From positions 26,087,019-26,151,018 of the forward strand of contig JASEVX010000012.1 of assembly GCA_031761405.1 (NCBI GenBank): a DNA stretch of 64,000 nucleotides. Reading direction: 5' to 3'. Below are positions 3,221-50,930 of the stretch, one piece after another. Each line of letters starts with the position of its first letter. Position 1 is the first letter of the stretch. Source of the stretch: Serripes groenlandicus. Lineage: Eukaryota; Mollusca; Bivalvia; Cardiida; Cardiidae. The position numbers and the translations under genes were made by a program. The notes under the pieces were generated by a model. It did no database searches, had not been told where the DNA came from, and was given only the letters and a program-made list of their open reading frames with translations.

Positions 3221-3583
3221 GTCACATGAATAGGTGCCGTTTACATCACATGAATAGGTGCCGTTTACATCACATGAATAGGTGCCGTTTACATCACATA
3301 AATAGGTGCCGTTTACATCACATGAATAGGTGCCGTTTACATCACATGAAACTGTACCGTTTACATCACATTAATAGGTACCGTTTACATCACATGAATA
3401 GGTGCCGTTTACATCACATAAATAGGTGCCGTTTACATCACATAAATAGGTACCGTTTACATCACATAAATAGATGCCGTTTACATCACATGAATAAGTG
3501 CCGTTTACATCACATAAATAAGTGCCGTTTACATCACATGAATAGGTGCCGTTTTACATCACATAAATAGGTGCCGTTTACTT
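3221..3583. repeat. 24-bp minisatellite, about 15 units
   Basis: The unit is close to CATGAATAGGTGCCGTTTAC plus ATCA. Because 24 is divisible by three, one plus-strand frame stays open for 114 codons and reads as an octapeptide repeat (HMNRCRLH-like). Nothing around it suggests a gene, so this is treated as a non-coding array. Confidence 0.85.
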
Positions 3584-34309: not shown

Positions 34310-35754
34310 TTTAAGGTGAGCCATCTTTAAGACAATAGGTCCATTTTCCCGAATATCGACCATGCTCGACATTTTGATCTATATTTAAATCGTAAATAAC
34401 ACTTTTCCATGATCAGAGAGACAAAATCCCCATGTTCCCGAATATCGACCTGGCTCTACATTCAGCCTATTTTCAAAACGGTATTCGTGCTTCTACATGT
34501 TCAGAAAGACGATGGCACAATTTTCCCGAATATCGACCTGGCTCGATATTAAGATCGATATCAAAATGGGAATCCGCACTTTTTCATGATTAGAAAGTCG
34601 AAATCAGCATATTTCCGAATATCGAAATCAGATCGATATTCAAATCGGTATTCGCGCTCCCACATGACCAGAAAGACGAAATCAGTAGTTTTCCGAATAT
34701 CGACCTGGCTCGATATTCAGATCGATATTCAATTCGATATTCAAATCGGTATTCAGCCCTAGATTCAAATTGGTATTCGCTCTAATATATGATCAGGAAG
34801 ACAAAATCACTATTTTCTCGAATATCGACTTGGCTCGATATTCAGATCGATATTCGCATTTCTACATGATCAGAAAGACATAATCACACTTTTAACGAAT
34901 ACAGAGCTGTTCAGATCGATATTCATATTGGTATTCGGACTTCTACATGATCAGAAAGACAAAATCAGCATTTACTCGAATATCGACCTAGCTCTATATA
35001 AATATCTGTATTCCAATATATGATCGCTCTCATACATGTCTCAGAGAGACTTAATCAGCATTTTCCCGAATATCGACCTGCTTCGATATTCAGATCGATA
35101 TTCAAATCTGTATTTGCAGTCTTACATCATCAGAAAGACGAAATTCCCATTTTCAAGAATATCGATCTGTATTCAGCACTAAATTCAAATCGGTATTCGC
35201 TCTTATACATAATCAGAAAGACAAAAATCACCATTTTCCCGAATATCGATCTGACTCGATATTCAAATCGGTATTCGCGCTTCTACATGATCAGAAAAAC
35301 AAAATCCGCATTTTCCCGAATATCGACTTGGCGCGATGTTCACATCAATATTTAAATCGGTATTCGTACTTCTACATGATCAGAAAGACGTAATCAGCAT
35401 TCTCCCGAATATCGACCTGGCTCGATATTCAGATTGATATTCGAATCGGTATTCGCACGTGTACATGGTCAGAAAGACGAAATCCCCATGTTCCCATATA
35501 TCGACCTTGCTCGATATTCAGATCGATATTCAAATCGGTATTCGCACTTCTACATGATCAGAAAGACGCAATCCTCAGTTTTCCGAATATCGACCTGGCT
35601 CAATATTCAGCCCTGGATTCAAATCGGTAACACGAAATCACAATTTTCCCGAATACAGAACTGTTCAGATCGATATTCATATTGATATTCGGCCTTCTAC
35701 AAGATCAGAAAGATAAAATCAGCATTTTCTCGAGTATAGACCTGTCTTTATATA
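34310..35754. repeat. About 90-bp tandem array, left part
   Basis: About 16 units built on CGAATATCGACCTGGCTCGA, TATTCAGATCGATATTC and CTACATGATCAGAAAGACG. The array is interrupted by the Polinton and resumes at 49,993. Related single units lie at 57,805-58,060. ORFs that read RISTWLDIQ-like peptides are products of the repeat. Confidence 0.9.
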
Positions 35755-35760
35755 CATAGC
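35755..35760. repeat. Target-site duplication, left (CATAGC)
   Basis: CATAGC stands directly before the left AGT end of the Polinton and is repeated exactly at 49,987-49,992. Six base pairs is the known Polinton duplication length. Confidence 0.97.
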
Positions 35761-36432
35761 AGTAGTAAGGGAGGGTAGACCGGGTCATTTTGCAAATGAC
35801 CCGGTCTACCCTCCTTTGGAGGGTATTTCGTCTCCAAAGGAGGGTAGACCGGGTCATGACCCGGTCTACCCTCCTTTTAAAAGGGATTTAAAGAGTAAAG
35901 GTATGAAGGGGAACTGGGTCATTTAAATAACTCTGTTATTTTGCGGCTGACCCGGTCTACCCTCCTTTGGAAGGAAATTCGTCTCCAAAGGAGGGTAGAC
36001 CGGGTCAGCGGGGAAAAAGGTAAGGGAGGGTAGACCGGGTCAGCCGCAAAAGTTGGACTTAGTCGTTTTTTCAATCTGGAGGGTAGACCGGTCCGGTCTA
36101 CCCTCCTTCGGAAGGTAAATCATCTCCTAAGGAGAGGTAGACTGGGGGATGTCCAAGGAGGGTAGACCGACAGGTCGGTCTAGCTGACCAGTGCATTCCC
36201 CAGTCTACCCCTCCTTAGGAGATGATTTACCTTCCGAAGGAGGGTAGACCGGGCCGGTCTACCCTCCTTGATAGGATAGACCGTGGACTTAGTCGTTTTT
36301 AGGTCTTTTCTGATGTTGGACTTAGTCGTTTTTCAATGACAAATTTGAAAAAGTTGAACTTTCTAAGTATGTGGTATGGCCCTAAAAAGGGCCTTTTTTT
36401 GTTTTTCGGGGTGTTAAAGTCGAGTGGCATTG
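35761..36432. repeat. Left terminal inverted repeat of the Polinton (672 bp)
   Basis: Inverted match to the right end, reaching from AGTAGTAAGG to GGTGTTAAAGTCGAGTGGCA. It contains about 12 copies of GGAGGGTAGACC in both orientations that pair into hairpins, including one right at the tip: GGAGGGTAGACCGGGTCA, then ATTTTGCAAA, then TGACCCGGTCTACCCTCC. Confidence 0.93.
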
Positions 36433-36598
36433 ACATATGTTTTTTCTGGTAAGCTATGTCATATTATGGATTGTTTTTAGGAATATCAAAAAAACCAAAC
36501 ACAAAGATTTATGATTAAATGAACTTTTTATTGAACTATGAACTATGAACTATGAACAGTGAACAACATATTTACAATACAGTTTTTACAATAAATTT
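36433..36598. other. 3' flank of the gene cluster inside the left TIR
   Basis: Short AT-rich stretch with three GAACTAT repeats. It holds the polyadenylation signal listed separately. Confidence 0.5.
36527..36532 (-). terminator. AATAAA polyadenylation signal after the gene cluster
   Basis: AATAAA on the minus strand, about 66 bp past the protease stop codon and the first good signal after the last ORF. It could end a transcript that covers the whole cluster. Confidence 0.6.
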
Positions 36599-37093
36599 TT
36601 ACAATAAAGTTTTTAAAGTCTTTTCATGTATTGTTTTTCCATAAATCTGTTTGAACCAAATGGTTACATTTCGATCGTTTCTGTGATGTTCGGTTGTCCT
36701 AAATGTTTGTTGTAGACATTTCTGTAGATTGTTTCCTCTCGCTACTGCATTCAGTACAAATATACAGTAATATCCACACACTACACCCAACAAACTTTGA
36801 ATAACTTGTTTGTTGTATGTCCATGATGATGAGTTATTGTGGATAAAGCTCATAATTTCTGTGTCGAGTGGTGGTAATCCATATGAATCGAAGTATGTTG
36901 ATTCTCCATTTCTGTTAAAGATCACTGCTATCCAATGTTCACCAGATCTGTCAGATGAGTCTGTATTGACAATGTAAGCTTGTACACTGACTGGTTTTTG
37001 TTTTGGTAATTGATCTTTAGCACAAACTTGTGCATGAAGGTTTTTTATCCAAGTTCCATGATCCAGTATGTATTGTATTTCATGAGTATGCAT
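36599..37093 (-). CDS. PRO: Adenain-like cysteine protease
   Basis: 164 residues, the C48/Ulp1-related adenovirus-type maturation protease found in Polintons. The triad is visible in order: H53 in GEHWIAV, D69 in YFDSYG, and C106 in VVCGYYC, with the oxyanion glutamine Q99 seven residues before the cysteine as in adenain (Q-x6-C). In related viruses this enzyme cuts capsid and core precursors during virion maturation. Candidate cleavage sites in the pVI-like and pX-like proteins of this element fit that role. The ATG overlaps the stop of the preceding ORF by one base (TAATG). It is the last gene of the cluster. The catalytic residues are all present, so it should be active. Confidence 0.92.
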   Translation of the reverse strand: MHTHEIQYILDHGTWIKNLHAQVCAKDQLPKQKPVSVQAYIVNTDSSDRSGEHWIAVIFNRNGESTYFDSYGLPPLDTEIMSFIHNNSSSWTYNKQVIQSLLGVVCGYYCIFVLNAVARGNNLQKCLQQTFRTTEHHRNDRNVTIWFKQIYGKTIHEKTLKTLL

Positions 37094-37548
37094 TACTTTC
37101 CCCAGGCCTGTTTGACTTTCTCACCCCAATGTTCAAACCATGAATCAGGAAACCCATTGATAACATTCTGTTTAATATTCAACCACATTTTGTAGGCTAC
37201 TACAATTTCTGAGTCTTTCAGTACCATTTCTTCTATTACAGGGTACCATTTCTCCATGATCTTGTTTGGATTAATCCTATGCATTGCTGTGGCAACGAAC
37301 ATATCTGTATGATCATGTCTGTCCATGAAGAGGCAAAGTTGATGTTGCATTTGACTTGGATGATCTATGAGACACCCATGACAATTGTTATGTACTTCTT
37401 CAGCGATAAGTGTCTGTAATTCATCTATTATGATTTTTTCAAGAGAATTGTAAATGTCCTTTCTCCTTTTTTCACTGACAGCGGCTGAAGAATATTTCAC
37501 TTTGAAAGCTTCATCTCTAAGTAGAATCGCCAATTCATGACCGGCCAT
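37093..37548 (-). CDS. Conserved Polinton protein with Cys/His motif
   Basis: 151 residues, ATG at 37,546-37,548. The distinctive part is C56-x2-C59 (NNCHGCL), followed by H63, H69 and C72 in a HPSQMQHQLC stretch, which could bind zinc. Around it are two helical, charged regions; the C-terminal one is rich in Trp and Lys. I know similar Cys-His small proteins from metazoan Polinton-type elements, but no function is established. It sits between the major capsid protein and protease and overlaps the protease start by one base, so a late structural or assembly role is a guess from context. Confidence 0.8.
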   Translation of the reverse strand: MAGHELAILLRDEAFKVKYSSAAVSEKRRKDIYNSLEKIIIDELQTLIAEEVHNNCHGCLIDHPSQMQHQLCLFMDRHDHTDMFVATAMHRINPNKIMEKWYPVIEEMVLKDSEIVVAYKMWLNIKQNVINGFPDSWFEHWGEKVKQAWGK

Positions 37549-37586
37549 GATTTCCTTTTTCAGTAATCTGTGATGATTTCTTTTTT

Positions 37587-38894
37587 TCAGTAATCTGTGA
37601 TGATTTCTCTTAAGGCGTTGATTTCTATCTGATTATCGAATTCAGCAAAGACAATAACGTTGATGACTGTAGGAAGTACCACACCAAACTGAAGTTCAAT
37701 TCTGAGGTTCCCTGTTTTTATAGGATGTAGCTGACCTTCTTCACTGCCTTGATCTGCTGTCAGATCGTATCCCCACAATGCAAAGCCATTCTCGAACTCA
37801 TTTTTAGTTATGCCAAATGATTTATTAGCGCCAATAGCCGAGACAGCCTGGTGTAGCGACAGGTATGACTTAAGAAAAAGGCCATGTTCGAAATCAGGTT
37901 CAAATGGTCTGTTATGAATACTATGACCGTTACATGAAACATTTAGTTTACACAGATTAAAGTGTAAAAATCGGAATGGATTTTGTGCATAAGCCCCATT
38001 AAAAGCATCATTTCGTACCATACCAATGAAAATACGTTTTGGTAATTGTCCTCGAAACAAATGATCTTCAACTTTAGACTGAAGACCAGTTCCGACTGTA
38101 AACGTTTTAACTTCAACTCTACGAATTGGTATTTTCATGTTTTGCTGTGCAATGACTTGATTTAAATCATTTGCAATGACTGGTAATATTTCGACATTTC
38201 TTACATTGAAACTAACTGTTTCAAACACAACTTTTGCTGCCGGTGCCCCGGCAGCACCTGTAAGACAAAAAGTTGTTGAAGATCTATTTAGTCTTAATCG
38301 CATTTCAATACCATTTGGTAAATATTTTTCTTGATGAAACATATCAAGATGAATTCGTCCACACAACTCTGTGGATTTGCTTTCTGTTATTTCAGCTATT
38401 CTTTTTACTAATCCTTCGTTGGCACCATCATGAGTTAATACATTGAGTGATCCAGCAGTGTCTTTAATCCAAAGATCACTCGAAGCTAGATGCGTGACTT
38501 TACTATCAGTATTGTATGACAGAAGATTTTCAATATATGCTCTGTACGGGTATGTGTCCATATTACTGCTAACCAATTTATTGTTTAAATACAGGTCAAT
38601 ACTGCTAAACATACTGTGAAGAAAATTGTTTGTTGGGGCGACGTTACTATCTGCTTCTAAGTTAGTACCATCTGCTTGTGTAATTTTGAATTTAACATAC
38701 AAATAAGACTGTGACAAATCTGTCCAACACTCTGTCTGAGATGGAATAATGAATTCTATCGGTGAATTGTTTCCTAAAGATGCTACAGGAAAATGCTCAA
38801 CCCATTGACTTTCTTGCATTGTTGTCATCGTTGGTGGTACAGACAGAACATCAAGTTCTGATTTACTACATTCACAAGATCCACTTTGCATCAT
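37587..38894 (-). CDS. MCP: Major capsid protein (double jelly-roll, F54H12.2-like)
   Basis: 435 residues, starting at the first of two ATGs (MMQSG). It matches the family often labelled F54H12.2-like in animal genomes, which is the Polinton major capsid protein. Typical stretches are TNNFLHSMFSSIDLYLNN (about 85-105), TYPYRAYIENLLSY (about 112-126), PIRRVEVKTFTVGTG and GQLPKRIFIG in the middle, NDAFNGAYAQNPF, and VINVIVFAEFDNQIEIN near the C terminus. The protein should form trimeric capsomers of an icosahedral shell. A 27-bp direct repeat (37,561-37,581 and 37,588-37,608) duplicates the last codons and the stop just after the real stop, in frame. Intact and full length for this subgroup. 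Confidence 0.9.
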   Translation of the reverse strand: MMQSGSCECSKSELDVLSVPPTMTTMQESQWVEHFPVASLGNNSPIEFIIPSQTECWTDLSQSYLYVKFKITQADGTNLEADSNVAPTNNFLHSMFSSIDLYLNNKLVSSNMDTYPYRAYIENLLSYNTDSKVTHLASSDLWIKDTAGSLNVLTHDGANEGLVKRIAEITESKSTELCGRIHLDMFHQEKYLPNGIEMRLRLNRSSTTFCLTGAAGAPAAKVVFETVSFNVRNVEILPVIANDLNQVIAQQNMKIPIRRVEVKTFTVGTGLQSKVEDHLFRGQLPKRIFIGMVRNDAFNGAYAQNPFRFLHFNLCKLNVSCNGHSIHNRPFEPDFEHGLFLKSYLSLHQAVSAIGANKSFGITKNEFENGFALWGYDLTADQGSEEGQLHPIKTGNLRIELQFGVVLPTVINVIVFAEFDNQIEINALREIITDY

Positions 38895-38911
38895 TTTTAA
38901 TACTGGTTTCT

Positions 38912-39292
38912 TTAATCAAACACGTCTAAAGTTCTAGGTTTACTGTAATGTTTCTTATGTCTCTTTGAAACGATCTTACCCCTATGAGTTCGAGACTTTA
39001 AATGACGAGACTGTCTCGTTTTAGGCTTATTTATTCCACCTATAAGATTCTGTGCCAGATCTTTTACTGATTCTTTTCCACGCGATATCAATACAGCTTT
39101 TGGATTTTTTCCATGTAAGAAAATATCTTGAGCTGCACCTATTCCTTGTTTAATACCCTCCTTCTTTAAAGCATTCAATCCAGATTTGACTAAAGGTTTT
39201 AGTAGTGGTGTAACAGTTCTGAGTGCTGATTTAAATAATGAACCTAGTCCATACCCATACTGGTGTTTTACACCTCTATATACAGGCATCAT
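38912..39292 (-). CDS. pVI-like minor virion protein
   Basis: 126 residues. The N-terminal part is glycine-rich (YGYGLGSLF, 12-20) and followed by a long amphipathic segment (about 18-60), then GKNPKAVLISRGKES. The last third is very basic (KTRQSRHLKSRTHRG). This arrangement resembles the membrane-active/DNA-binding protein VI of adenoviruses and its counterparts in Polinton-type elements. L83-I-G-G86 followed by I87 fits the adenain-type consensus (M/I/L)xGG-x and may be a maturation site. It lies 17 bp before the MCP start. Assignment is by pattern and position, not by a search. Confidence 0.7.
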   Translation of the reverse strand: MMPVYRGVKHQYGYGLGSLFKSALRTVTPLLKPLVKSGLNALKKEGIKQGIGAAQDIFLHGKNPKAVLISRGKESVKDLAQNLIGGINKPKTRQSRHLKSRTHRGKIVSKRHKKHYSKPRTLDVFD

Positions 39293-39318
39293 TTTTTTGG
39301 TATTGGTTAACCCACACT

Positions 39319-40206
39319 TTAGCGAACCTGTCTGAAATGTAACTTTGCGATTGTCTTGCCAATAACAAAATGAACAGGATAACCAGAATCACCAGTTATA
39401 TTGATATGAATTGTATCGAATTCCGATTTTGAGACAGGGACATAATGTAAATTCATTATCTCATGATTGATATGTTGACTATCATTATTTTCATCAGAAT
39501 TGGATGTTTTGAATGGAACGACACGAAGTATAGGGGCTAATGTATCACCAACGATAGAGTATTCAACAATATCTGAATAGATAAACAAATGATTATATCC
39601 TGCATCAATGTTTGCACTGTACTTGAACATTTGTAAACTATTTTTCCCCGGATAGATTGTATTGCCCTTGAATTCTGGTGAACCACCGAATTTTAAAAAC
39701 AATGATGGATGAAGTTTTATCCCTGTTTTAATAATTTTAGTAAATCCAAGTTTTGGACGTTTTGTTCTTTTTGAATATTCGATAATCAAAGCAGATTGAT
39801 TTTTTGATAGTATGTCACCTATCATGTTTTGTATTATTTCATTTATAACATTCAACACATGTGATGGTGATGTGTAAGACCCCGCAGCAAAAGTGAATTT
39901 CATTGACCACTTGTTTGGTACTTTTGAACTGTCATAGTCTATTGGTAATACTGGTGGCAATTTCTTAGTAGATTTAACAAGTAGTTTTTGAAATGCTACA
40001 TCACGTGTGATTATTTCAAATTCTGCTTCTTTCTCAGATATGTTTAAAAATTGTGACGGTGTAATTAGTTGAACTAATGCAACTTCCCATTGTTCTTTTC
40101 CAATATGAATTGTTTTCGGTAACTTGACTTTAAAACAACATTGTGTATTACTTGGAAAGTAATCCATAGAACTGTCACTCGGTAATGTAAGATAAAATGA
40201 ATTCAT
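39319..40206 (-). CDS. mCP: Minor capsid protein (penton-like, jelly-roll)
   Basis: 295 residues. The start, MNSFYLTLPSDSSMDYFPSN, followed by a region with KLPKTIHIGKEQWEVALVQ, is the characteristic opening of the Polinton penton/minor capsid protein. The rest is beta-rich, ending in GDSGYPVHFVIGKTIAKLHF. In relatives it forms the pentameric vertices of the capsid. The ATG overlaps the stop of the upstream membrane protein by 4 bp (ATGA). No stop or frameshift. Confidence 0.82.
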   Translation of the reverse strand: MNSFYLTLPSDSSMDYFPSNTQCCFKVKLPKTIHIGKEQWEVALVQLITPSQFLNISEKEAEFEIITRDVAFQKLLVKSTKKLPPVLPIDYDSSKVPNKWSMKFTFAAGSYTSPSHVLNVINEIIQNMIGDILSKNQSALIIEYSKRTKRPKLGFTKIIKTGIKLHPSLFLKFGGSPEFKGNTIYPGKNSLQMFKYSANIDAGYNHLFIYSDIVEYSIVGDTLAPILRVVPFKTSNSDENNDSQHINHEIMNLHYVPVSKSEFDTIHINITGDSGYPVHFVIGKTIAKLHFRQVR

Positions 40207-40511
40207 CTTTTACCATCAATAAGATCAAACGTCTGTTTACCCTGTTTTGTATATTTCAAACCTGGTGATGGTAGAATATAACCTAATGAACTACTTAAAA
40301 GAATTAACCACAATTCGTGATTTTCTGTTCTAAGACTGAGATGTATTATGGACGTTACAATGATTGTATAAATAACAATGATTTGTGAAATGTACGTGAA
40401 CTGATTTTTAGGAACACGATTTCCACAGCAATTATACGGTGTTGATCGACTATCGTCGATACTTTCTGTTCCAACTTCAATGTTAGACTGTGAACGCTTG
40501 TCTAGCGTCAT
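40203..40511 (-). CDS. Conserved two-TM Polinton protein
   Basis: 102 residues. A polar N-terminal part with CC at 28-29 (YNCCGNRVPKNQ) precedes two hydrophobic segments (about 39-60 and 67-81), and the second ends in LGYILPSPGLK. Small proteins with this CCG...VPK...LLSS.LGYILP.P pattern recur in animal Polinton-type elements. The function is unknown; membrane insertion is likely. It overlaps both neighbours by 4 bp (integrase stop and penton start). Confidence 0.78.
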   Translation of the reverse strand: MTLDKRSQSNIEVGTESIDDSRSTPYNCCGNRVPKNQFTYISQIIVIYTIIVTSIIHLSLRTENHELWLILLSSSLGYILPSPGLKYTKQGKQTFDLIDGKR

Positions 40512-41632
40512 GACTTTTTATTAACAAGATATGATTCTGGAATCCAACTTTGAAATTTGGTAGGATATCCTTTCCAATTAACCTTTATCTCTCTGACTAT
40601 TTTTTTACCTTTACGTCTTGTTCGCTTTGCAAGAACTGAATCAATTTCATAGATTTCATCATCTTTTATGAATTGTAATTCAGGTTCATAAAAAGTGCCC
40701 AAGATTTGCTCACCGTCTAAATCTTTAACGACATATGTTACTGGAGAAGTTGATTTATTTACATGTACAATTTCAAATAATTCCTGTGTCCAGTTAGGAA
40801 GATAACCTTTTTCAAATGTTCGTTTTGTTTTGTTAATTCGTACACGGTTTCCTATCTTGAATTTTGCTTTTTTATTTGAAACGGGGTTCTGAGGGTACAG
40901 ATTCTCTGAAATTTCAGCTTCATTAGTTTGATTAACAGATGCAGGATTTGATTTGATACTTCTGTGAAAAGTATTATTGTAATTGTTTACTAATTTTTCC
41001 AGAATATCAATGTAACGCTTTGTTTTCATGTGAGTGAAATATTTCCACATACGTGTTTTCAAAGTTCTTTGAAATCTTTCAACAATACTCGCTTTTGTTT
41101 CAGGGTTTTCAGTGGTAAAAAAATGAATACGATTTCGTTTTAACCATTGTTGAAATTCTTTGTTTTTGAATTCCGTACCTTTATCCGTTTGCAAAGAAAT
41201 CGGGGTTCTTTTTGATTTCTGAAGTATGGATTGAAATGCAACAATTAACGTTTTACCAGTTTTATTTGGAATAGGAACAACCCAGGAAAACTTAGAAAAT
41301 ACATCAATAACACAAAGTAAATACTTTTTGTTGTCATTTTGTTTAGCTAAATGTTGCATGTCTGCTAAATCAGCTTGCCATTGTTGATCAATACCAGACA
41401 CAATAGTTCTACGTCTTTTGAAACGTCTTCGTATAGGTTTATGTAAAGTAAATGTTGTTTCTCCTTGTAACCATTCCCTTACATCCTGATATTTCACACC
41501 CTTCAAAACGTACTTAGCAGCATGATACAGCTGCTTAATACTAGAATAGGCTACAGAACTATTTATGTTGTAATACAATTTTCTTAAAACGAAATCAAGT
41601 TTTTGATGCTTCTTCTTTAGTATGATTCCCAT
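40508..41632 (-). CDS. INT: Retrovirus-type integrase with C-terminal chromodomain
   Basis: 374 residues. The DDE core is complete: D88 in WQADLADM, D150 in QTDKGTEF and E185 in SIVERFQRTLK, with 34 residues between the second and third. After the core comes an SH3/Tudor-like basic region (about 256-322, KFKIGNRVRINK) and a chromodomain (about 328-372, with VNWKGYP and W363). The enzyme joins the AGT/ACT ends to target DNA and makes the 6-bp duplication; the chromodomain could steer insertion to marked chromatin such as heterochromatic repeats. No zinc-binding HHCC head is evident. Its start overlaps the previous ORF by 16 bp. All catalytic residues are intact. Confidence 0.95.
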   Translation of the reverse strand: MGIILKKKHQKLDFVLRKLYYNINSSVAYSSIKQLYHAAKYVLKGVKYQDVREWLQGETTFTLHKPIRRRFKRRRTIVSGIDQQWQADLADMQHLAKQNDNKKYLLCVIDVFSKFSWVVPIPNKTGKTLIVAFQSILQKSKRTPISLQTDKGTEFKNKEFQQWLKRNRIHFFTTENPETKASIVERFQRTLKTRMWKYFTHMKTKRYIDILEKLVNNYNNTFHRSIKSNPASVNQTNEAEISENLYPQNPVSNKKAKFKIGNRVRINKTKRTFEKGYLPNWTQELFEIVHVNKSTSPVTYVVKDLDGEQILGTFYEPELQFIKDDEIYEIDSVLAKRTRRKGKKIVREIKVNWKGYPTKFQSWIPESYLVNKKS

Positions 41633-42483
41633 GTCTGACGTTTTGAAGTACTTGCTTCTTGTTTTATAGGGGTAGTTAATTCTTTTCTGTAGAATTCCCT
41701 AAGACGATCTCTTTCACCAGCTTGTGTGTAGGGTGTCATTGCTCGAACTTGTTTTTTCATTTTTGCAGATGATGGCAATTTCTTAGGGGTACTGTAATCA
41801 TCAGCAAAATGAACTTCGTTTTTCATTTTTGCAGATGGTGGTGATTTTTTAGAGGTACTGTAATCATCAGATTCACTTTCGTCGGCTTTATCATCATGTA
41901 TGTTTTGTTTGTGCATCCATTTCCATCTTGCTTGATTACCAATAACTTCTTGTGGTACGTTACTTTCATGTAAAGCCTTTGAAAAAGTTTCCCAGCCTCT
42001 TGGTTCAATACCTTTTCTAAGTCTTAATGAATCATTGATTAAATCAATGATATTTGAGCCAGGAAGTCGTTTACCTTTGTATGAAACAACACCGTGATTG
42101 TCCCAAACAAGATTTTCATTATCTTTGACCATGTTTAAAAGTAATTCAGCTTTCCTTTGCATGGTTTTAGGAACGCTTTGTAATATTCGGTCATGCATTG
42201 AACTAGATTCAGGATTTGATGGGGTAGTTGTATGTTGTTGTGATGGTTGTGACCATGATTGAGCCTTTTTCAATGAGTTCTGTAACTTGAATAAAGTTTC
42301 ACCGTACTTTTGCGCCTTTTCTGTTTCTGACATATCTGACGTTTCCAATATACCCGACATCTTATTTTGTAGATGTACTACATCTGCTACTTGTGGATTT
42401 GGTGGTAATCGAGGTCTTTGTTTTTGACGTTTCATATCCTCTAAGATTTGATAAGGTACAATAACCATTTTTCTGACTGACAT
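41617..42483 (-). CDS. Conserved Polinton protein of unknown function
   Basis: 288 residues. It has the pattern of a widespread metazoan Polinton protein: VIVPYQILEDM at the N terminus, SETEKAQKYGETL (about 52-64), and a central domain VPKTMQRKAELLLNMV ... VVSYKGKRLPGSNIIDLIND (about 104-151) with GWETF after it. The C terminus is low complexity and holds a tandem 20-residue repeat (DDYSTSKKSPPSAKM / DDYSTPKKLPSSAKM). No enzymatic motif is seen. Position among capsid genes suggests a virion component; this is inference. Confidence 0.8.
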   Translation of the reverse strand: MSVRKMVIVPYQILEDMKRQKQRPRLPPNPQVADVVHLQNKMSGILETSDMSETEKAQKYGETLFKLQNSLKKAQSWSQPSQQHTTTPSNPESSSMHDRILQSVPKTMQRKAELLLNMVKDNENLVWDNHGVVSYKGKRLPGSNIIDLINDSLRLRKGIEPRGWETFSKALHESNVPQEVIGNQARWKWMHKQNIHDDKADESESDDYSTSKKSPPSAKMKNEVHFADDYSTPKKLPSSAKMKKQVRAMTPYTQAGERDRLREFYRKELTTPIKQEASTSKRQTWESY

Positions 42484-42488
42484 TGTTC

Positions 42489-42854
42489 TTACAGTGATTT
42501 CAGCATACCACCAAGTCCCCCGATAACAGCTTTTCCTAACAATGGTAATAAGGCTCCTGCAAGCAACGGTAGAAATCCTCCTTTTTGGTTAAGAATTCGT
42601 TTCTTTTTCTTAATGGAAACCGATTTCGATGCAATTTGTCTGAGTTGTTGACGGATTGGATGTAACTTAGTCTTATGAGCCTTGGTCAGATGAACATTGC
42701 CTTTTAAAACGTTGTGACAACATTCCGAAACACAATCAATGACAGGACGATTAGCTGCGTTTATTAGCTTTTTTCTCACGTTGTGTGGTGACTGTATCAT
42801 GGCCATTACCATTGATCCATGTTTTCTAATGAGTGGTGATTTCTGTTTACCCAT
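42489..42854 (-). CDS. pX-like basic core protein
   Basis: 121 residues. A basic centre (SIKKKKRILNQ, 80-90) runs into KGGFLPLLAGALLPLLGKAV (91-110) and a glycine/hydrophobic end. The KGGFLP-type motif after a Lys-rich run is the hallmark of the small core protein that adintovirus/Polinton studies compare with adenovirus protein X. C41, C45 and C46 form a small cysteine cluster. I111-G-G-L114 followed by G115 fits the adenain consensus (M/I/L)xGx-G. Likely DNA-condensing in the virion. Confidence 0.72.
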   Translation of the reverse strand: MGKQKSPLIRKHGSMVMAMIQSPHNVRKKLINAANRPVIDCVSECCHNVLKGNVHLTKAHKTKLHPIRQQLRQIASKSVSIKKKKRILNQKGGFLPLLAGALLPLLGKAVIGGLGGMLKSL

Positions 42855-42889
42855 GTTGACACTATCTCTGTCTAAAGTGAAATGATCTA

Positions 42890-42895
42890 TTTATT
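42890..42895 (-). terminator. Possible AATAAA signal between ORFs
   Basis: AATAAA on the minus strand, 16 bp after the stop of the 236-residue ORF. If used it would split the cluster into separate transcripts. It may also serve as an AT-rich upstream element for the pX-like ORF. Confidence 0.3.
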
Positions 42896-42910
42896 TTCAT
42901 TGCAATACTT

Positions 42911-43621
42911 TTATGCAAATCGTGAATACAAAGCACCTAAAGCTGTTCTTGCGGATGATGAAAGTGGTACAGTTGTCAGTGGTGAAAATGGTGCAATATC
43001 GTACAAGTCTGAAGCACGGGATGCTGTGTATGGAGGCGAACCAAGTCCACTTGAAGAAGGAATAGATTGAAACTGTATTTGTTTACGTGGTGTCACATTT
43101 TTATTGTCTTTTAGTCTGTTTTGACTTCTGGGTGTTTTTTTCTTCAAATCTTTTTTCTTGGTTTTGTTTTTTGTTTTATTTCTGGGGGGTTTTCTCATTG
43201 TAATAAATCTTTCATCGATGACAAATCGGTCATTTCTTTTTTTGGACGGCTTTTTCCTTTGTTTGTCAACACCAAATTTACGAGCTGTCTTTTCTCCGTC
43301 CCATCGTAACAAACTTCTGATTATAACACCACCAAGAAACCCTCCTCCACCAGGTTTAAGAATGATTTTTCGCTTGACTTCTTCATCAATCTCAGGGTTG
43401 GCTAACTTATGTATGTCATCTTTATGTTTCGTCATGTATGTAACCGTCTGTTTCGGTAATTTGATTTTATAACCAACAATGTTTTTAGCAGCCAAAGTAA
43501 ACCATTTTAATATTTCTTTTAACCCTGCTTTGAGTAAAGCTTCTCTGGCATGTTTGTTGGTTTCATGACTTAGGTTTTGTAAGGCCTGAATCACTGACTT
43601 TGAAGTGTGTGGTATAGCCAT
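42911..43621 (-). CDS. Basic Polinton protein with GGGGFLGG motif
   Basis: 236 residues. The N-terminal domain (about 1-105) has NKHAREALLKAGLKEILKW, LPKQTVTYMTKHKDDIHKLA and ends in IILKPGGGGFLGGVIIRSLL. A long Lys/Arg-rich stretch (about 113-185) and a Ser/Pro tail follow. The KPGGGGFLGG element echoes the KGGFLP motif of the neighbouring pX-like protein, so the two may be related virion/core proteins. Function is inferred from base richness and context only. Confidence 0.75.
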   Translation of the reverse strand: MAIPHTSKSVIQALQNLSHETNKHAREALLKAGLKEILKWFTLAAKNIVGYKIKLPKQTVTYMTKHKDDIHKLANPEIDEEVKRKIILKPGGGGFLGGVIIRSLLRWDGEKTARKFGVDKQRKKPSKKRNDRFVIDERFITMRKPPRNKTKNKTKKKDLKKKTPRSQNRLKDNKNVTPRKQIQFQSIPSSSGLGSPPYTASRASDLYDIAPFSPLTTVPLSSSARTALGALYSRFA

Positions 43622-43678
43622 GTTAACACAAAGACCTGATCAAGATAAATGAATGTTGATCTTCTCATCATAAGTGTT

Positions 43679-44344
43679 TTATAGTGGAGAATAAACAATA
43701 GGTCCACGATCTTCATTTTGTGTAAACCATCTGTGAAATATATCCGTTCTTAGTTTCATCTCCTTTTGAGTACGAGAATGAAAATCAATCACCAAATACC
43801 CATGATCTTTAGATGTAGCATCTTGGTAGGCCATTATCAAATGAGGTGCTTGCATTTGATTTGCCAAAGTCTTTATTTGATTCTTATCACGTACATTTTG
43901 AAACAAGATCATGTATTTTGAATTCAAACTAATGGTTCGACTCGACTTGGACTGCTGAAACATGTTTTGTGTGATATAAATCACACTTGCATTCCTATGA
44001 TGACCTTTTCTTGTAAACCATAACTTGATTTTATCTTCATCTTTTTCCCCTAACATGTCATCAAAGACAACTAAATGTGGAATGTCAACATCACTTACAA
44101 TTTCATTTTCATCGTCGGGGATACCTTCAATGAATTTCATGATTTCGAATTTCTCTTGCATAACATTGTAAGCATGTTGCCATTCTTTGTAACACCATAC
44201 CACTTTTTCTGGTACAATGTTGAACAGATCATTTCTATATTCAATCAGTTTATGAACGAATTCTGTTTTTCCACATCCACTAGGTCCTGTGATATACATA
44301 TTACAGGGATGTTGAAATAATATGGACTGAATATCGGCATCCAT
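43679..44344 (-). CDS. ATP: A32/FtsK-like DNA-packaging ATPase
   Basis: 221 residues. Walker A is GPSGCGKT at 20-27 and Walker B is HLVVFDDML with D95-D96, followed by a YITQN motif (about 118-126) as in FtsK-HerA/A32 packaging ATPases. The protein should pump genome DNA into the capsid. It is the first ORF of the cluster, 68 bp downstream of a TATA box. Length is normal for a Polinton ATPase and all motifs are intact. Confidence 0.94.
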   Translation of the reverse strand: MDADIQSILFQHPCNMYITGPSGCGKTEFVHKLIEYRNDLFNIVPEKVVWCYKEWQHAYNVMQEKFEIMKFIEGIPDDENEIVSDVDIPHLVVFDDMLGEKDEDKIKLWFTRKGHHRNASVIYITQNMFQQSKSSRTISLNSKYMILFQNVRDKNQIKTLANQMQAPHLIMAYQDATSKDHGYLVIDFHSRTQKEMKLRTDIFHRWFTQNEDRGPIVYSPL

Positions 44345-44400
44345 GTTAACTCTTTAAAGGCCTGAGAAGAAATAACAACACAAGAATCAAGTTATCTTAT

Positions 44401-44406
44401 TTTATT
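44401..44406 (-). terminator. AATAAA signal of the vanished PolB gene
   Basis: AATAAA on the minus strand 39 bp past the PolB relic stop. It overlaps the promoter area of the cluster downstream. Confidence 0.5.
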
Positions 44407-44411
44407 CACAT

Positions 44412-44419
44412 CTTTTATA
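44412..44419 (-). promoter_or_regulatory. TATA box of the capsid/integrase cluster
   Basis: TATAAAAG on the minus strand, 68 bp before the ATPase ATG. A start site 25-30 bp downstream would give a leader of about 40 nt. No equally good TATA box is seen before the inner ORFs. Confidence 0.6.
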
Positions 44420-44444
44420 CAATTCATATTATTGACGCAGAGAT

Positions 44445-44669
44445 TTATACCCATATAACAGTGTCCGTATCATTGACAATTACTCTTTGTGTATACACCG
44501 ATTTTACGTTTTTTGTTTGAGCTTCACTTGTCACGGATCTGTCGGCATATCTTTTAATTCTACACGCATAGGTCACTTTTATTTCTGTGTCACGATCTTC
44601 AGCACATTGTGTAAATGTTTCAAAGTTGATTAAATGACAGGTATTGTAATCCAATGTGATTCCTTTCAC
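44445..44669 (-). pseudogene. POLB: C-terminal relic of protein-primed DNA polymerase B
   Basis: An open frame of 75 codons with no ATG (first codon GTG, stop just upstream in the repeat array). It begins KGITLDYNTCHLINFET and continues with a basic RIKRYADRS stretch, then a KNVKSVYTQRVI motif and an aromatic end. This matches how Polinton PolB proteins end: a KG-T-LNY-N--L-NF motif, a basic linker and a Y-V-YTKR-like segment. The polymerase and exonuclease domains, more than 1,000 residues in a normal element, are absent. The break falls at about 44,675, exactly where the 53-bp tandem array begins. Assignment rests on pattern memory of the family and on the expected gene order. Confidence 0.78.
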
Positions 44670-44675
44670 AACAAC

Positions 44676-45710
44676 AGAACGTTAAAATTCACAAGTCATT
44701 TGTCATGTTTTTAAAGAAAAACACAACAGAACGTTACAATTCACAAGTCATTTGACATGTTTTTTAAAGAAAAACACAACAGAACGTTAAAATTCACAAG
44801 TCATTTGTCATGTTTTTAAAGAAAAACACAACAGAGCGTTACAATTCACAAGTCATTTGTCATGTTTTTTAAAGAAAAACACAACAGAACGTTACAATTC
44901 ACAAGTCATTTGACATGTTTTTTAAAGAAAAACACAACAGAACGTTAAAATTCACAAGTCATTTGTCATGTTTTTCAAGAAAAACACAACAGAACGTTAA
45001 AATTCACAAGTCATTTGACATGTTTTTTTAAAGAAAAACACAACAGAACGTTACAATTCACAAGTCATTTGTCATGTTTTTAAAGAAAAACACAACAGAG
45101 CGTTACAATTCACAAGTCATTTGTCATGTTTTTCAAGAAAAACACAACAGAACGTTACAATTCACAAGTCATTTGACATGTTTTTTAAAGAAAAAACACA
45201 ACAGAACGTTAAAATTCACAAGTCATTTGTCATGTTTTTCAAGAAAAACACAACAGAACGTTACAATTCACAAGTCATTTGACATGTTTTTAAAGAAAAA
45301 CACAACAGAACGTTACAATTCACAAGTAATTTAGCATGTTTTTAAAGAAAAACACAACAGAACGTTACAATTCACAAGTCATTTGACATGTTTTTTTAAA
45401 GAAAAACACTACAGAACGTTACAATTCGCAAGTCATTTGACATGTTTTTTTTAAAGAAAAAACACAACAGAACGTTACAATTCACAAGTCATTTGACATG
45501 TTTTTTAATGAAAAAACACAACAGAACGTTAAAATTCACATGCCATTTGTCATGTTTTTTAAAGAAAAACACTACAGAACGTTACAATTCGCAAGTCATT
45601 TGACATGTTTTTAAAGAAAAAACACAACAGAACGTTACAATTCACAAGTCATTTGTCATGTTTTTAAAGAAAAAACACAACAGAACGTTACAATTCGCAA
45701 GTCATTTGTC
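44676..45710. repeat. 53-bp tandem array inside the Polinton, about 19 units
   Basis: The unit is close to AAAGAAAAACACAACAGAAC, GTTACAATTCACAAGTCATT, TGACATGTTTTTT. Length varies by the poly-T/A run. It takes the place of the missing PolB gene. Confidence 0.93.
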
Positions 45711-47489
45711 ATGTTTTAAAAACAAAACAAAAGAACAGTACAATTCGCAAGTCAATGTTCATGTTTTTTACAGATTGCAACAGCAAATTCCATTTGTATA
45801 GTTCTGAAACTTCATAAATGGCTTAACGATAACGTGGTCTCTGAATCACATGTTAGAAATCAGAGAAAACCATCTATCATTTGAAAATATTTCATGATTT
45901 GTGAGATTGATAAAACACAATAGCGTCCCTGTATAGTAAAAAAAATAACATAGAGAAAGATGTGTGTTTTCACGATAACTTTAACACGTTTAAACAACCA
46001 TGTTATCTCCGCATCAATGTATGAATTCATTGTCTCTGACTTAAAATACCTTATTAATGAACTTGTGATATAAAAAAACCGAGTTAACAAATGAAAAAGT
46101 GTTATGTTTTAAAAACAAACAAAAGAACAGTACAATTCGCAAGTCAATATTCATGTTTTTTACAAATTGCAACAGCAAATTCCATTTGTACAGTTCTGAA
46201 ACTTCATAAATGGCTTAACGATAACGTGGTCTCTGAATCACATGTTAGAAATCAGAGAAAACCATCTGTCATTTGAAAATATTTCATGATTTGTGAGATT
46301 GATAAAACACAATAGCGTCCCTGTATAGTAAAAAAAATAATATAGAGAAAGATGTGTGTTTTCACGATAACTTTAACACGTTTAAACAACCATGTTATCT
46401 CCGCATCAATGTATGAATTCATTGTCTCTGACTTAAAATACCTTATTAATGAACTTGTGATATAAAAAAACCGAGTTAACAAATGAAAAAGTGTTATGTT
46501 TTAAAAACAAAACAAAAGAACAGTACAATTCGCAAGTCAATATTCATGTTTTTTACAAATTGCAACAGCAAATTCCATTTGTACAGTTCTGAAACTTCAT
46601 AAATGGCTTAACGATAACGTGGTCTCTGAATCACATGTTAGAAATCAGAGAAAACCATCTGTCATTTGAAAATATTTCATGATTTGTGAGATTGATAAAA
46701 CACAATAGCGTCCCTGTATAGTAAAAAAAATAACATAGAGAAAGATGTGTGTTTTCACGATAACTTTAACACGTTTAAACAACCATGTTATCTCCGCATC
46801 AATGTATGAATTCATTGTCTCTGACTTAAAATACCTTATTAATGAACTTGTGATATAAAAAACCGAGTTAACAAATGAAAAAGTGTTATGTTTTAAAAAC
46901 AAAACAAAAGAACAGTACAATTCGCAAGTCAATATTCATGTTTTTTACAAATTGCAACAGCAAATTCCATTTGTACAGTTCTGAAACTTCATAAATGGCT
47001 TAACGATAACGTGGTCTCTGAATCACATGTTAGAAATCAGAGAAAACCATCTGTCATTTGAAAATATTTCACGATTTGTGAGATTGATAAAACACAATAG
47101 CGTTCCTGTATAGTAAAAAAATAACATAGAGAAAGATGTGTGTTTTCACGATAACTTTAACACGTTTAAACAACCATGTTATCTCCGCATTCAATGTATG
47201 AATTCATTGTCTCTGACTTAAAATACCTTATTAATGAACTAATGATATAAAAAACCGAGTTAACAAATGAAAAAGTGTTATGTTTTAAAAACAAAACAAA
47301 AGAACAGTACAATTCGCAAGTCAATGTTTATGTTTTTTACAGATTGCAACAGCAAATTCCATTTGTATAGTTCTGAAACTTCATAAAAGGCTAAACGATA
47401 ACGTGGTCTATGTATCACATGTTAGAAATCAGATAAAACCATCTGTTATTTGAAAATATTTCATGATTTGTGAGATTGATAAAACACAA
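45711..47489. repeat. 392-bp tandem array inside the Polinton, about 4.5 units
   Basis: Units start ATGTTTTAAAAACAAAAC at 45,711, 46,104, 46,496, 46,888 and 47,280 and are nearly identical. The first 50 bp of each unit (AGAACAGTACAATTCGCAAG) is a diverged copy of the 53-bp unit, so this array grew from the first. A minus-strand frame repeats in three units but opens only from TTG. Confidence 0.93.
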
Positions 47490-48818
47490 AATTGACATAT
47501 TTAGCCAAAATACTGTAAAACTTGCTTTAAGTGACGTCATGCAGTTTTAAACGTCATAATAATCCAGTTTTTACGTCACATAGTCTCAATATTTCATTCC
47601 TTTGAGAGCTCTTGGAGGGTAAAGACGTACCTTGCAAAGCTAAAAACGGAATTCATTTTGTAGAATTATTTGGTACAACCAAATAAATAATGGTAATCTT
47701 TTAGCATAAGCTTCTGAATGGACATACTTATCAACCTGTACAACACGTATGAACACAGCCTATCAATGATTTCAGAGTGGATGTTAACAGAACTGCATAA
47801 AGTAAACAGTCGTCAATATTCAATGTTGGAAAAGCTTTTAACGGAATTGAGAAAAGTCAACAGCAGTCCGACGAATTAAAAGACTTTGAACAGATATATC
47901 TACAAAACATTTACGGATCGGAGATATACACCTACCTTTATGAAAGTACCAGTATGTTTTGAAGTTGAAAGGTAAAGTCTGAGTGACTTTATACTAACTC
48001 TACTAGATCAACGCGGATGACAGTAAGCTGTCAGCGACAAAACCATGCAGTACAATCTTCAACATTTCAACTGGTGTTGCGGAGGAAAATTTTAACTCTC
48101 CGTATCACCTCGCAAAAGGAAATCAACAAATGATACTCCAAAACAGACACGTAAAAAGACATGTGAGGAGTCATACAGAATTTCAACAGTTACTGGGAAA
48201 GGCGAACATTCCGATCACATTGACAAGTTCAAGATCCAGAAAGAGAAAACCCCAAAACAATCACGTAAAAGGGCATGTGAGGAGTAAGGGCTAACCAAAT
48301 GTCTCGAAAAGTTTCAACTTTTCAAATTGTCATTGTGTATATTTTATCTTAAGATAAAATAAAAGTTCAAAAATACATTTTTGTTTTTTAAATCCCTTAC
48401 CAGAAAAAACATTTGAAAACATGTATTTACACTAGGTTGTGCCCCACAACTTTTCATAGAATAACGTTCAGTTATTTCATTGGTCAAGCTTAATTCTGAG
48501 TCAAAATGTAGTTCAATCCGACCTAACGGTATAAATAGCAGAACGTCATTTTCAATCCACACATTCTTTTTAACTCATCGATATCAACATGTAATTATTC
48601 AGAGGTGTGTTAAAAGTCTTCATTGATTTAATTGACGTTGGCCGTAGACTGTATAATATATTTACTGAATTATACGTTAATCGGAGACTACCTCGGGAAA
48701 TTGATACAATTCGTTATCCAGATGGGGTGTATTTAGTCAGAGTGATGATAGCAAAAGCTACTTATGAGTTCTGTCTCCTTGCAGTTCTCATAGGTACTTC
48801 ACTGGGTAATTGGTATGC
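47490..48818. other. Right-hand region of the Polinton, no clear gene
   Basis: Single-copy sequence between the arrays and right TIR. Small frames: a plus-strand ATG frame of 53 codons at 47,718-47,879 (helical, MDILINLYNTYEHS start), and a plus-strand frame at about 48,043-48,287 with a repeated basic motif (TPKQTRKKTCEE / TPKQSRKRACEE) broken by one in-frame stop. They could be remnants of accessory or early genes. Evidence is weak. Confidence 0.4.
48531..48539 (+). promoter_or_regulatory. TATA box near the right TIR
   Basis: TATAAATAG on the plus strand, followed 25-30 bp later by a pyrimidine-rich stretch. It points toward the small ORF that runs into the right TIR. Confidence 0.35.
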
Positions 48819-48837
48819 CAATGCCATTCGACTTTAA
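48589..48837 (+). CDS. Possible small ORF reaching into the right TIR
   Basis: An open frame of about 82 codons without an early ATG (the nearest ATG is followed at once by TAA; the first internal one is in VRVMIAK). It encodes an amphipathic part (VFIDLIDVGRRLYNIF) and a hydrophobic end (FCLLAVLIGTSLGNWYANAI). The last codons and the stop lie within the TIR. It could be a real accessory protein that uses a non-AUG start or a spliced leader exon, or chance. Confidence 0.25.
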
Positions 48838-49986
48838 CACCCCAACAAAACAAAACGGTCCTTTTTAGGGCCACACCACATACTTAAAAAGTTCAACTTT
48901 TTCAAATTTGTCATTGAAAAACGGCTAAGTCCACGGTCTATCCTATCAAGGAGGGTAGACCGGCCCGGTCTACCCTCCTTCGGAAGGTAAATCATCTCCT
49001 AAGGAGGGGTAGACTGGGGAATGCACTGGTCAGCTAGACCGACCTGTCGGTCTACCCTCCTTGGACATCCCCCAGTCTACCCCTCCTTAGGAGATGATTT
49101 ACCTTCCGAAGGAGGGTAGACCGGACCGGTCTACCCTCCAGATTGAAAAAACGACTAAGTCCAACTTTTGCGGCTGACCCGGTCTACCCTCCCTTACCTT
49201 TTTCCCCGCTGACCCGGTCTACCCTCCTTTGGAGACGAATTTCCTTCCAAAGGAGGGTAGACCGGGTCAGCCGCAAAATAACAGAGTTATTTAAATGACC
49301 CAGTTCCCCTTCATACCTTTTTCCCCGCTGACCCGGTCTACCCTCCTTTGGAGACGAATTTCCTTCCAAAGGAGGGTAGACCGGGTCAGCCGCAAAATAA
49401 CAGAGTTATTTAAATGACCCAGTTCCCCTTCATACCTTTACTCCCTAAAAACGACTAAGTCCACGGTCTATCCTATCAAGGAGGGTAGACCGGCCCGGTC
49501 TACCCTCCTTCGGAAGGTAAATCATCTCCTAAGGAGGGGTAGACTGGGGAATGCACTGGTCAGCTAGACCGACCTGTCGGTCTACCCTCCTTGGACATCC
49601 CCCAGTCTACCCCTCCTTAGGAGATGATTTACCTTCCGAAGGAGGGTAGACCGGGCCGGTCTACCCTCCAGATTGAAAAAACGACTAAGTCCAACTTTTG
49701 CGGCTGACCCGGTCTACCCTCCCTTACCTTTTTCCCCGCTGACCCGGTCTACCCTCCTTTGGAGACGAATTTTCTTCCAAAGGAGGGTAGACCGGGTCAG
49801 CCGCAAAATAACAGAGTTATTTAAATGACCCAGTTCCCCTTCATACCTTTACTCTTTAAATCCCTTTTAAAAGGAGGGTAGACCGGGTCATGACCCGGTC
49901 TACCCTCCTTTGGAGACGAAATACCCTCCAAAGGAGGGTAGACCGGGTCATTTGCAAAATGACCCGGTCTACCCTCCCTTACTACT
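48819..49986. repeat. Right terminal inverted repeat of the Polinton (1,168 bp)
   Basis: Inverted match to the left TIR but about 500 bp longer. The extra length comes from an internal duplication with a 530-bp step (CCACGGTCTATCCTATCAAG at 48,931 and 49,461) and, nested in it, a step of about 120 bp (CCTTTTTCCCCGCTG at 49,197 and 49,316). It ends GTCTACCCTCCCTTACTACT. Confidence 0.92.
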
Positions 49987-49992
49987 CATAGC
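49987..49992. repeat. Target-site duplication, right (CATAGC)
   Basis: Exact copy of 35,755-35,760, directly after the terminal ACT. Confidence 0.97.
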
Positions 49993-50930
49993 TTTATTCA
50001 AATCTGTAATCGCTCTTATACATGATCAGAGAGACGTAATCAGCATTTTTCCGAATATCGATCAGGCTCGATATTCAGCCCTGTATTCAATACGGTATTT
50101 GCTCTTATACATGAGCAGAAAGACAAAATCACCATCTTCTCGAATATCAACATGGCTCGATATTCAGATCGATATTCAATCTGCGGTATATGATAAAAAA
50201 CGACAAAATCACCATTTTCCCGAATATCGACTTGGCTCGATATTCAGATCGATATTCAACTCTGTAATCGCATTTCTACATGATCAGAAAGACGAAACAA
50301 GAATTTTCCCGTATACAGAGCTGTTTAAATCGATATTCAAATCGGTATTCGGCCTTCTACATGATCAAAACGACAAAATCACCATTTTCCCGAATATCGA
50401 CCTGGCTCGATATTCAGACCGATATTCAACTCTGTAATCGCATTTCTACATGATCAGAAAGACGAAATCACAATTTTCCCGTATACTGAGATGTTCAGAT
50501 CGATAATCAAATCAGTATTCGGCCTTCTACATGATCAGAAGGACAAAGTATTTTCCCGAATATCGACCTGTCTTCATATTCATATCTTATATTCAAATCA
50601 GCATTCGCTCTTATTCATGATCAGAGAGACGAAATCAGCATTTTCCCGAATATCAACCTGGCTCGATATTTAGATCGATATTCTAATCGGTATTCGCAAT
50701 TCTACATTATCAGAAAAACGAAAACACCATTTGCCCGAATTTCGAGCTGGTTCGATACTCAAATCGATATTCAAATCGGTATTCGGTCTTCTACATGATT
50801 TAGAAAGATAAAATCATCATTTTCCCGAATTCAGATATGTATTCAAATCGTTAATCGATCAAATACATGGTCGGAAAGACGAAATAACCATTTTCTCGAA
50901 TATCAATCTGACTAAAGTACACGATCTTAC
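49993..50930. repeat. About 90-bp tandem array, right part
   Basis: About ten more units of the CGAATATCGACCTGGCTCGA array, continuing in the same orientation and phase as the left part. Confidence 0.9.

Follow-up and report, generated by a model that had tools for sequence, protein, structure and literature searches.

A Polinton lineage lacking its DNA polymerase gene in the bivalve Serripes groenlandicus, a probable capsid-bearing satellite of its polymerase-bearing sister

The element and its genes

This study concerns a Polinton (Maverick) element in the bivalve Serripes groenlandicus (Cardiidae), which spans positions 35761-49986 (14,226 bp) of a stretch of 64,000 nucleotides taken from the forward strand of contig JASEVX010000012.1 (assembly GCA_031761405.1, positions 26,087,019 to 26,151,018); the whole of this stretch is called the window below. 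The element has lost the gene of its protein-primed DNA polymerase (PolB). This loss has been inherited by many copies in the genome, independent insertions took place after it, and PolB-bearing sister elements are abundant in the same genome and exchange sequence with the PolB-less ones.

The element is flanked by 6-bp target-site duplications, CATAGC, which can be read directly at 35755..35760 on the left and, in identical form, at 49987..49992 on the right. An inverted-repeat search placed the left terminal inverted repeat at 35761..36303 (forward strand), where it starts with AGTAGTAAGGGAGGGTAGA and holds many palindromic hairpins, and the right one at 48917..49986 (reverse strand). The right repeat is partly duplicated, the duplication being seen over 48917-49997 as two arms, I1 and I2; the arms of I1 are 554 nt long, 99% complementary, and overrun the element ends by about 11 bases. 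A minisatellite surrounds this copy (34585-35629 and 49995-50835), and among ten other copies whose flanks are both at hand there are three (L017, L023 and L026) in which left and right flank are repeats of each other. Tandem repeats may thus be preferred as targets, as copies lie within minisatellite or self-repeating flanks.

Eleven open reading frames (ORFs) run leftward on the reverse strand. From the left end, these encode an adenain-like cysteine protease of 164 aa (36599..37093; PF00770, 24 bits against a cut-off of 21.3), a protein of 151 aa (orf151; 37093..37548), the major capsid protein (MCP) of 435 aa (37587..38894), proteins of 126 aa (38912..39292), 295 aa (39319..40206) and 102 aa (40203..40511), a retroviral-type integrase with a chromodomain (374 aa, 40508..41632; PF00665 at 58.2 bits and PF00385 at 26.7 bits), proteins of 288 aa (41617..42483), 121 aa (42489..42854) and 236 aa (orf236; 42911..43621), and an A32/FtsK-like packaging ATPase of 221 aa (43679..44344; PF04665, Pox_A32, 33 bits); those without a name are taken from the ORF list. 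The MCP was identified as a double jelly roll by its predicted fold (pLDDT 86), for which the capsid protein of Sputnik is the top structural match and the MCPs of PBCV-1 and mavirus are matched too, with a best E of 1.9e-17; named relatives of this protein include proteins from the bivalves Mercenaria and Crassostrea. The 295-aa ORF adjoins the MCP, matches nothing in Pfam and is, by position alone, a candidate for the minor capsid (penton) gene. On the forward strand of the right arm lie the remnant of a frame that has 250 codons in the sister element, where it stands right of PolB (48100..48290; 90% match to positions 3494-3675 of the sister piece L038), and a stop-to-stop frame of 80 codons (48595..48837), the counterpart of a 95-codon frame in the sister.

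A Pfam scan of ten of the eleven leftward ORFs (the 102-aa ORF at 40203 was left out) and of the 80-codon right frame recognised no polymerase, primase or helicase, of which highly diverged ones could escape; weak RNA_helicase and AAA matches on the 221-aa ORF were attributed to the P-loop of the packaging ATPase. To this extent the preliminary description of the locus, made from the sequence alone, was right in stating that the element carries no replicase, helicase or primase ORF, and its statement that the capsid is the element's own holds at the sequence level, both in the fold match of the MCP and in the left-arm ORFs of other copies. The element therefore combines terminal inverted repeats, a 6-bp duplication, an rve integrase, a packaging ATPase, an adenain-like protease and a double-jelly-roll MCP, all of them features of Polintons, with a protein-primed PolB of which a C-terminal remnant is left. 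Since PolB is reduced to this remnant, the element is filed as a non-autonomous derivative rather than as a full Polinton.

The PolB remnant, the arrays and the copies that share them

The remnant lies at 44445..44669 on the reverse strand, within a stop-to-stop frame of 78 aa (44445-44681). Three other copies, L035-L037, align with the window over the 3' end of PolB up to 44669 and then continue into PolB, while the window passes into an array of 53-bp units; thus homology to the PolB-bearing relative L037 ends at 44669 and the array starts at 44671. At the protein level the remnant matches the PolB C terminus (VKGITLDYNTCHLINFETFTQCAEDR...), and the last residues are frame-shifted, VNDTDTVIWV versus VNDTDTVPYGYKSLRQ; close to the frame's end the window lacks two bases that the aligned PolB-bearing and older copies have. 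Among the 31 best matches to this stub the matched span is 321 bases in 17 (window included) and 323 in 14. Pfam does not recognise the window stub by itself. What had been described as an ATG-less frame with the typical ending of PolB, cut at the very edge of the array, is indeed ATG-less, aligned to PolB and cut there, with the correction that its final residues are out of frame.

As had also been described, two tandem arrays follow each other, one of about 21 units with a period of 52-53 bp (44671..45768, forward strand) and one of 4.5 units of 392 bp (45707..47489, forward strand). Both were delimited by a repeat search, together they measure 2.8 kb, and a related stretch is common to the two units, so that the 392-bp unit partly resembles the 53-bp one. 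Among copies the number of 53-bp units ranges from 3 to at least 29, some runs reaching the end of the sequence piece.

The 1.76 Gb assembly was searched with the stub as query and the best 40 of 151 candidates were scored, so that all copy counts given here are lower bounds; moreover, this query favours copies with arrays, and the counts are no census. The exact junction between stub and array is present in 32 of the 40 scored matches, the window included, as read in L009-L028 (n = 20, the window being L018), L091-L101 (n = 11) and L031. In five further matches (L029, L030, L032, L033 and L034) PolB extends about 90 bp further, and some 300 bp separate the position of 44669 from the start of the 53-bp array; a marker for the 392-bp unit is present in four of these and was not found in L032, and the stretch preceding the 53-bp array in L029, L030 and L032 resembles the 392-bp unit. 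The remaining three bear PolB (L035 with broken frames, L036 and L037). Accordingly PolB is reduced to a remnant in 36 of the 39 matches other than the window, and the 53-bp array begins in all 37 PolB-less ones (in 11 of these the first units are seen).

The ends of the element were sought in 20 exact-junction copies, namely L031 and the nineteen of L009-L028 other than the window. Both were found in ten, with ten different 6-bp duplications; in the others one or both ends lie outside the sequence pieces or were not recognised. Both ends were also found in two of four copies of the longer-stub, older type (L030, GACAAT; L032, GATACT), and right ends only in L029 and L034. This makes twelve copies besides the window, no two of which have the same duplication. 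L027 and L032 carry three extra bases at the right end before the duplication. A comparison of the flanks from 17 copies showed no relation between different copies except for a weak repeat match between L012 and L016. Since the exact junction is common to copies with different duplications, the lineage transposed after PolB was lost, and since the flanks are unrelated, the copies are neither one locus nor segmental duplicates. Loss of PolB after insertion, which had been named among the ways in which the idea could fail, is thereby ruled out, and new copies have been made without a recognised replicase of their own. Where both ends were measured, in 11 PolB-less copies including the window, the length falls between 13.2 and 14.6 kb.

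Regarding the origin of the arrays, 40 places of the 392-bp unit were picked by hand, one per locus, among those listed of at least 166 matches (best 40 of 87 candidates scored); two pairs of them share a stub match, which leaves 38 loci. Among the matches listed, 36 of the 40 places lie within 15 kb of a stub match, four lie elsewhere and none lies within 12 kb of a PolB match, and 34 of the 40 stub matches have such a place nearby, those without one being the three PolB-bearing copies, L032, L033 and an exact-junction match on C1396. The 392-bp unit therefore occurs almost only in this Polinton family among the matches listed, and the arrays find no support as a host satellite. A derivation from PolB-bearing sequence finds no support either: the sister lacks them in L035-L038 and in three other PolB loci, which the units match by words of 11-13 bases at most.

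The arrays might have a function, as promoter or enhancer, as replication start or as filler that brings the element to a packageable size, and in this way aid the spread of the lineage. The constant presence of the 53-bp array in the PolB-less matches and the near-privacy of the 392-bp unit would agree with this, and so would the lengths of 13.2-14.6 kb. We consider it unlikely, however, because the number of 53-bp units is very variable, the 392-bp marker was not found in L032 and no length homeostasis is apparent; it is possible either that the arrays keep the genome at a packageable length or that they are neutral.

The PolB-bearing sister and the exchange between lineages

One PolB-bearing copy was measured from end to end: it spans C1:104519223-104536840 (17,618 bp) between GACGCA duplications. 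L036 and L037 are 97.4-97.5% identical to the window in DNA over the 4.1 kb up to the junction. The PolB frame of L037 stays open for at least 1327 aa, at which point the sequence piece ends, and matches PF03175 at 163.7 bits. When sequence on the PolB side of the junction served as query, 40 places were scored (best 40 of 120 candidates), all 40 of them 99-100% identical over 740 bp beside the junction; two coincide with stub matches. Among 40 matches to the right end of the element, 26 are near an array place, nine near a PolB match and five near neither, and the nine pair with PolB matches at a near-constant distance of 7.2-7.5 kb.

In the PolB-bearing copy the interval that corresponds to 44670-48104 of the window is 7.1 kb long. 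Within it lie PolB, three stop-to-stop frames (301, 109 and 109 codons) and roughly two thirds of the 250-codon frame. Compared with L037 and L038, the window thus lacks about 7.1 kb and has 3.4 kb of array and spacer in its place, so that the earlier view, in which PolB alone was exchanged for about 2.8 kb of repeats, stands as regards the replacement of PolB by arrays and falls short as regards how much was lost. The 301-codon frame right of PolB (254-1156 of L038, forward strand), which is lost in the PolB-less lineage, shows weak CCHC zinc-knuckle matches below the cut-off.

A midpoint-rooted tree of ATPase and stub (29 rows) places all PolB-less copies except L031 in one clade of 25 with support of 0.99, divided into an older and a younger subclade. 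The existence of the older subclade makes the loss of PolB older than the window-type copies. L031 groups with the PolB-bearing copies in this tree. It is of window type from protease to integrase, with none of 64 PolB-bearing alleles in the MCP, and has PolB-bearing alleles at 18 of 18 sites in orf236, 6 of 6 in the ATPase and 10 of 13 in the stub stretch; its array stretch is 99.5% like that of the window. Similar tracts of PolB-bearing alleles were found elsewhere (L013, orf236, 17 of 18; L026, MCP, 52 of 64; L027, MCP, 51 of 64; L016, orf151, 5 of 5), from which it follows that PolB-bearing and PolB-less elements recombine. The sites diagnostic between the lineages, taken from the window versus L036 and L037, number 64 in the MCP and seven in the integrase; the capsid gene would have been either swapped in from a third lineage or faster in its evolution.

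The genes that remain are largely intact in recent copies. In L009-L028, window included, the ATPase is intact in all 20 and orf236 in 18, and in 13 of the 19 copies other than the window the ATPase is identical to that of the window. All seven left-arm ORFs are intact in six of ten other PolB-less copies and in both PolB-bearing copies examined. The older copies are decayed, with an intact ATPase in one of five. Between the window and the PolB-bearing copies dN/dS is 0.03-0.04 in the ATPase, 0.06-0.11 in the integrase and 0.45-0.51 in the MCP. Within the PolB-less copies, the variants not shared with L036 or L037 comprise 38 silent, 74 changing and three stop variants (pN/pS 0.51, p 0.0015); when, for each gene, rows more than 2% divergent are excluded, the overall ratio stays at 0.51 (p 0.0008), with 0.12 in the ATPase and 0.25 in the integrase. 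These ratios suggest that ATPase and integrase may have been under purifying selection after the loss of PolB.

Both lineages also have an outer AGTAGTAA and a common hairpin design in their terminal repeats. The first 130 bases (35761-35890) fold as single-stranded DNA into strong hairpins (z -12.8), and over ten ends (nine distinct rows, one of them PolB-bearing) 98.9% of the pairs in the first 21-bp stem are kept, although 7 of the 21 have changed on both sides. Palindromes can stay perfect through copying mechanisms, and hence this conservation is no proof of a binding site. Of 11 copies with both ends seen, 10 have first hairpins of one and the same type on the left and on the right; the right end of L017 has none.

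A further feature concerns the outermost genes. Directly 3' of the protease gene lies a stem-loop of the type found in histone 3' untranslated regions (RF00032, Histone3; 36352..36398, reverse strand, 36.5 bits against a cut-off of 34), and a second one lies directly 3' of the 80-codon frame (48852..48898, forward strand), at 31.6 bits below the cut-off (E 3.8e-5). No other RF00032 match occurs in the window at E <= 0.1, and matches to other Rfam families, far below their cut-offs, were taken as chance. Four further RF00032 matches, all below the cut-off, follow right-arm frames of the PolB-bearing sister (L038 at 4372, 3783 and 2267, forward, and 1343, reverse). Histone3 was matched in five of 13 sequence sources, the others being mostly right-end pieces that possibly start beyond the stem-loop, and in none of eight further PolB or capsid-side loci. 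Genes with these stem-loops may end in a non-polyadenylated mRNA of the S-phase type. The literature searched, by title or the start of the abstract, describes no Polinton with a histone stem-loop.

A probable satellite with its own capsid

Taken together, these results are best explained if the PolB-less lineage is a non-autonomous, capsid-bearing satellite that depends on its PolB-bearing sister as helper, a reading that we consider quite probable. The satellite already proposed in the preliminary description, which borrows PolB from relatives and keeps its own capsid, is in this respect upheld as the best explanation and amended in two points, in that more than PolB was lost and the loss predates the window-type copies. 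The lineage would have lost PolB together with the adjoining frames, the arrays filling the gap, and would have retained the terminal repeats, integrase, protease, ATPase and capsid genes. PolB would be supplied in trans: extrachromosomal copies would be replicated by the PolB of the near-identical sister, or by that of another Polinton in the genome, the sister's enzyme recognising the terminal repeats common to both lineages. The integrase, either the element's own or that of the sister, would then insert the copies with 6-bp duplications. The retained genes would likewise permit assembly of virions and packaging of the PolB-less element. To our knowledge, a particle stage of Polintons and the action of PolB in trans are both still open questions.

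Several observations weigh against this reading. Its evidence is genome sequence throughout; of 24 other PolB-less copies searched for their ends, 12 did not yield the pair; and in four of ten such copies one or two of the seven left-arm ORFs are broken. Recent copies are so alike that their genes may be intact through young age and not through selection. Some of the variants counted above may be recombinant imports, and variants from unsampled lineages were retained (MCP sites: 20 in L026 and 28 in L027); with the divergent rows excluded, the ratios, on few sites, are 2.2 in the MCP, 1.5 in the protease and 1.15 in orf236, which gives no sign of purifying selection on the capsid protein after the loss of PolB. 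In addition, the terminal repeat of the PolB-bearing copy sampled differs from that of the window element in its hairpin stems, at 84-85% across the outer 240 bp.

Among the rival accounts of how the copies arose, movement without any Polinton PolB, by cut-and-paste with the element's own integrase or through replication by host polymerases, would draw on the rve integrase with chromodomain that the element encodes. We think it improbable, since PolB-bearing sisters, abundant in the same genome, have a matching set of genes and related terminal repeats and recombine with the PolB-less lineage, so that a helper needs no new mechanism. Still less credible is gene conversion in place, by which the deletion and array would have spread through recombination among inserted PolB-bearing copies without any transposition of PolB-less ones. 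The conversion-like tracts in L031, L013, L026, L027 and L016 speak for exchange of this kind, but of ten copies whose two arms were both typed, six (L010, L012, L017, L021, L023 and L028) have none of the 64 PolB-bearing MCP alleles and at most one diagnostic site per gene, and such near-total window-type alleles mean that conversion would need to have replaced nearly the whole element at each site. Finally, arrays are difficult to assemble, but an artefact in which collapsed or mis-joined repeats conceal a real PolB gene, the other objection foreseen at the outset, is rejected with hardly any reserve, given a junction present at 32 places on many contigs, flanks that in the 17 copies compared are unrelated apart from one weak pair, array lengths that vary, an older variant with a longer stub, and 40 array places of which none lies within 12 kb of any of 40 PolB matches among the matches listed.

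The satellite reading can be set beside several known systems. In its terminal repeats, 6-bp duplications and set of integrase, protease, ATPase and double-jelly-roll capsid genes the window lineage is like Polintons, from which it differs in that PolB is a remnant throughout. Nine elements that lack a capsid gene are reported to have lost protease and ATPase as well (PMC4028283); there the capsid side is gone, so that the loss runs in the opposite direction. The TR-GAG retrotransposons of plants are described as non-autonomous elements that keep the capsid-type gene GAG and lack the rest; one was seen moving in Arabidopsis, whose genome also holds a possibly autonomous relative (PMC8704663). 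They resemble the window lineage, known here from its sequence, in being non-autonomous with a capsid-type gene kept; they are, however, RNA-based elements with long terminal repeats (LTRs), whereas the window lineage is a DNA element of the kind that has a protein-primed polymerase. Polinton-like viruses and virophages share with it an own capsid and integrated copies. A large share of cryptophyte polinton-like viruses have non-PolB replicases (PMC12220804), and virophages require a helper virus (PMC11172284). Polinton-like viruses without PolB carry another replicase, of which none is recognised in the window element, and the presumed helper here is a sister Polinton, not a giant virus as for virophages. 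Three stretches of viral contigs matched a pattern, and none was confirmed as a relative.

Defective interfering genomes of viruses carry an internal deletion, keep their ends and co-exist with a full-length relative. The window lineage resembles them in all three respects; unlike them it is inherited through the germ line, falls into two subclades and has been inserted independently many times. In the open-licence literature searched, by titles and the starts of abstracts, no Polinton lineage with capsid genes and without a polymerase is described.

It is conceivable, and we offer it tentatively as somewhat less than an even chance, that the lineage is a long-lived, self-packaging satellite, which lost PolB before its two subclades split, still builds a partly diverged capsid of its own, is replicated in trans by a sister expanding in the same genome and, like that sister, is linked to cell division by mRNA 3' ends of the histone type. 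In any case, one genome here offers a natural comparison between sister lineages with and without a polymerase, each with many near-identical copies and exchanging sequence with the other. That capsid genes were kept after the polymerase was lost suggests either a use of the capsid to the element itself or copies still too recent for decay, and the older subclade may separate these two cases. If the reading as a long-lived, self-packaging satellite is true, the window lineage would be a parasite with its own coats that relies on a transposon-virus for its copying.

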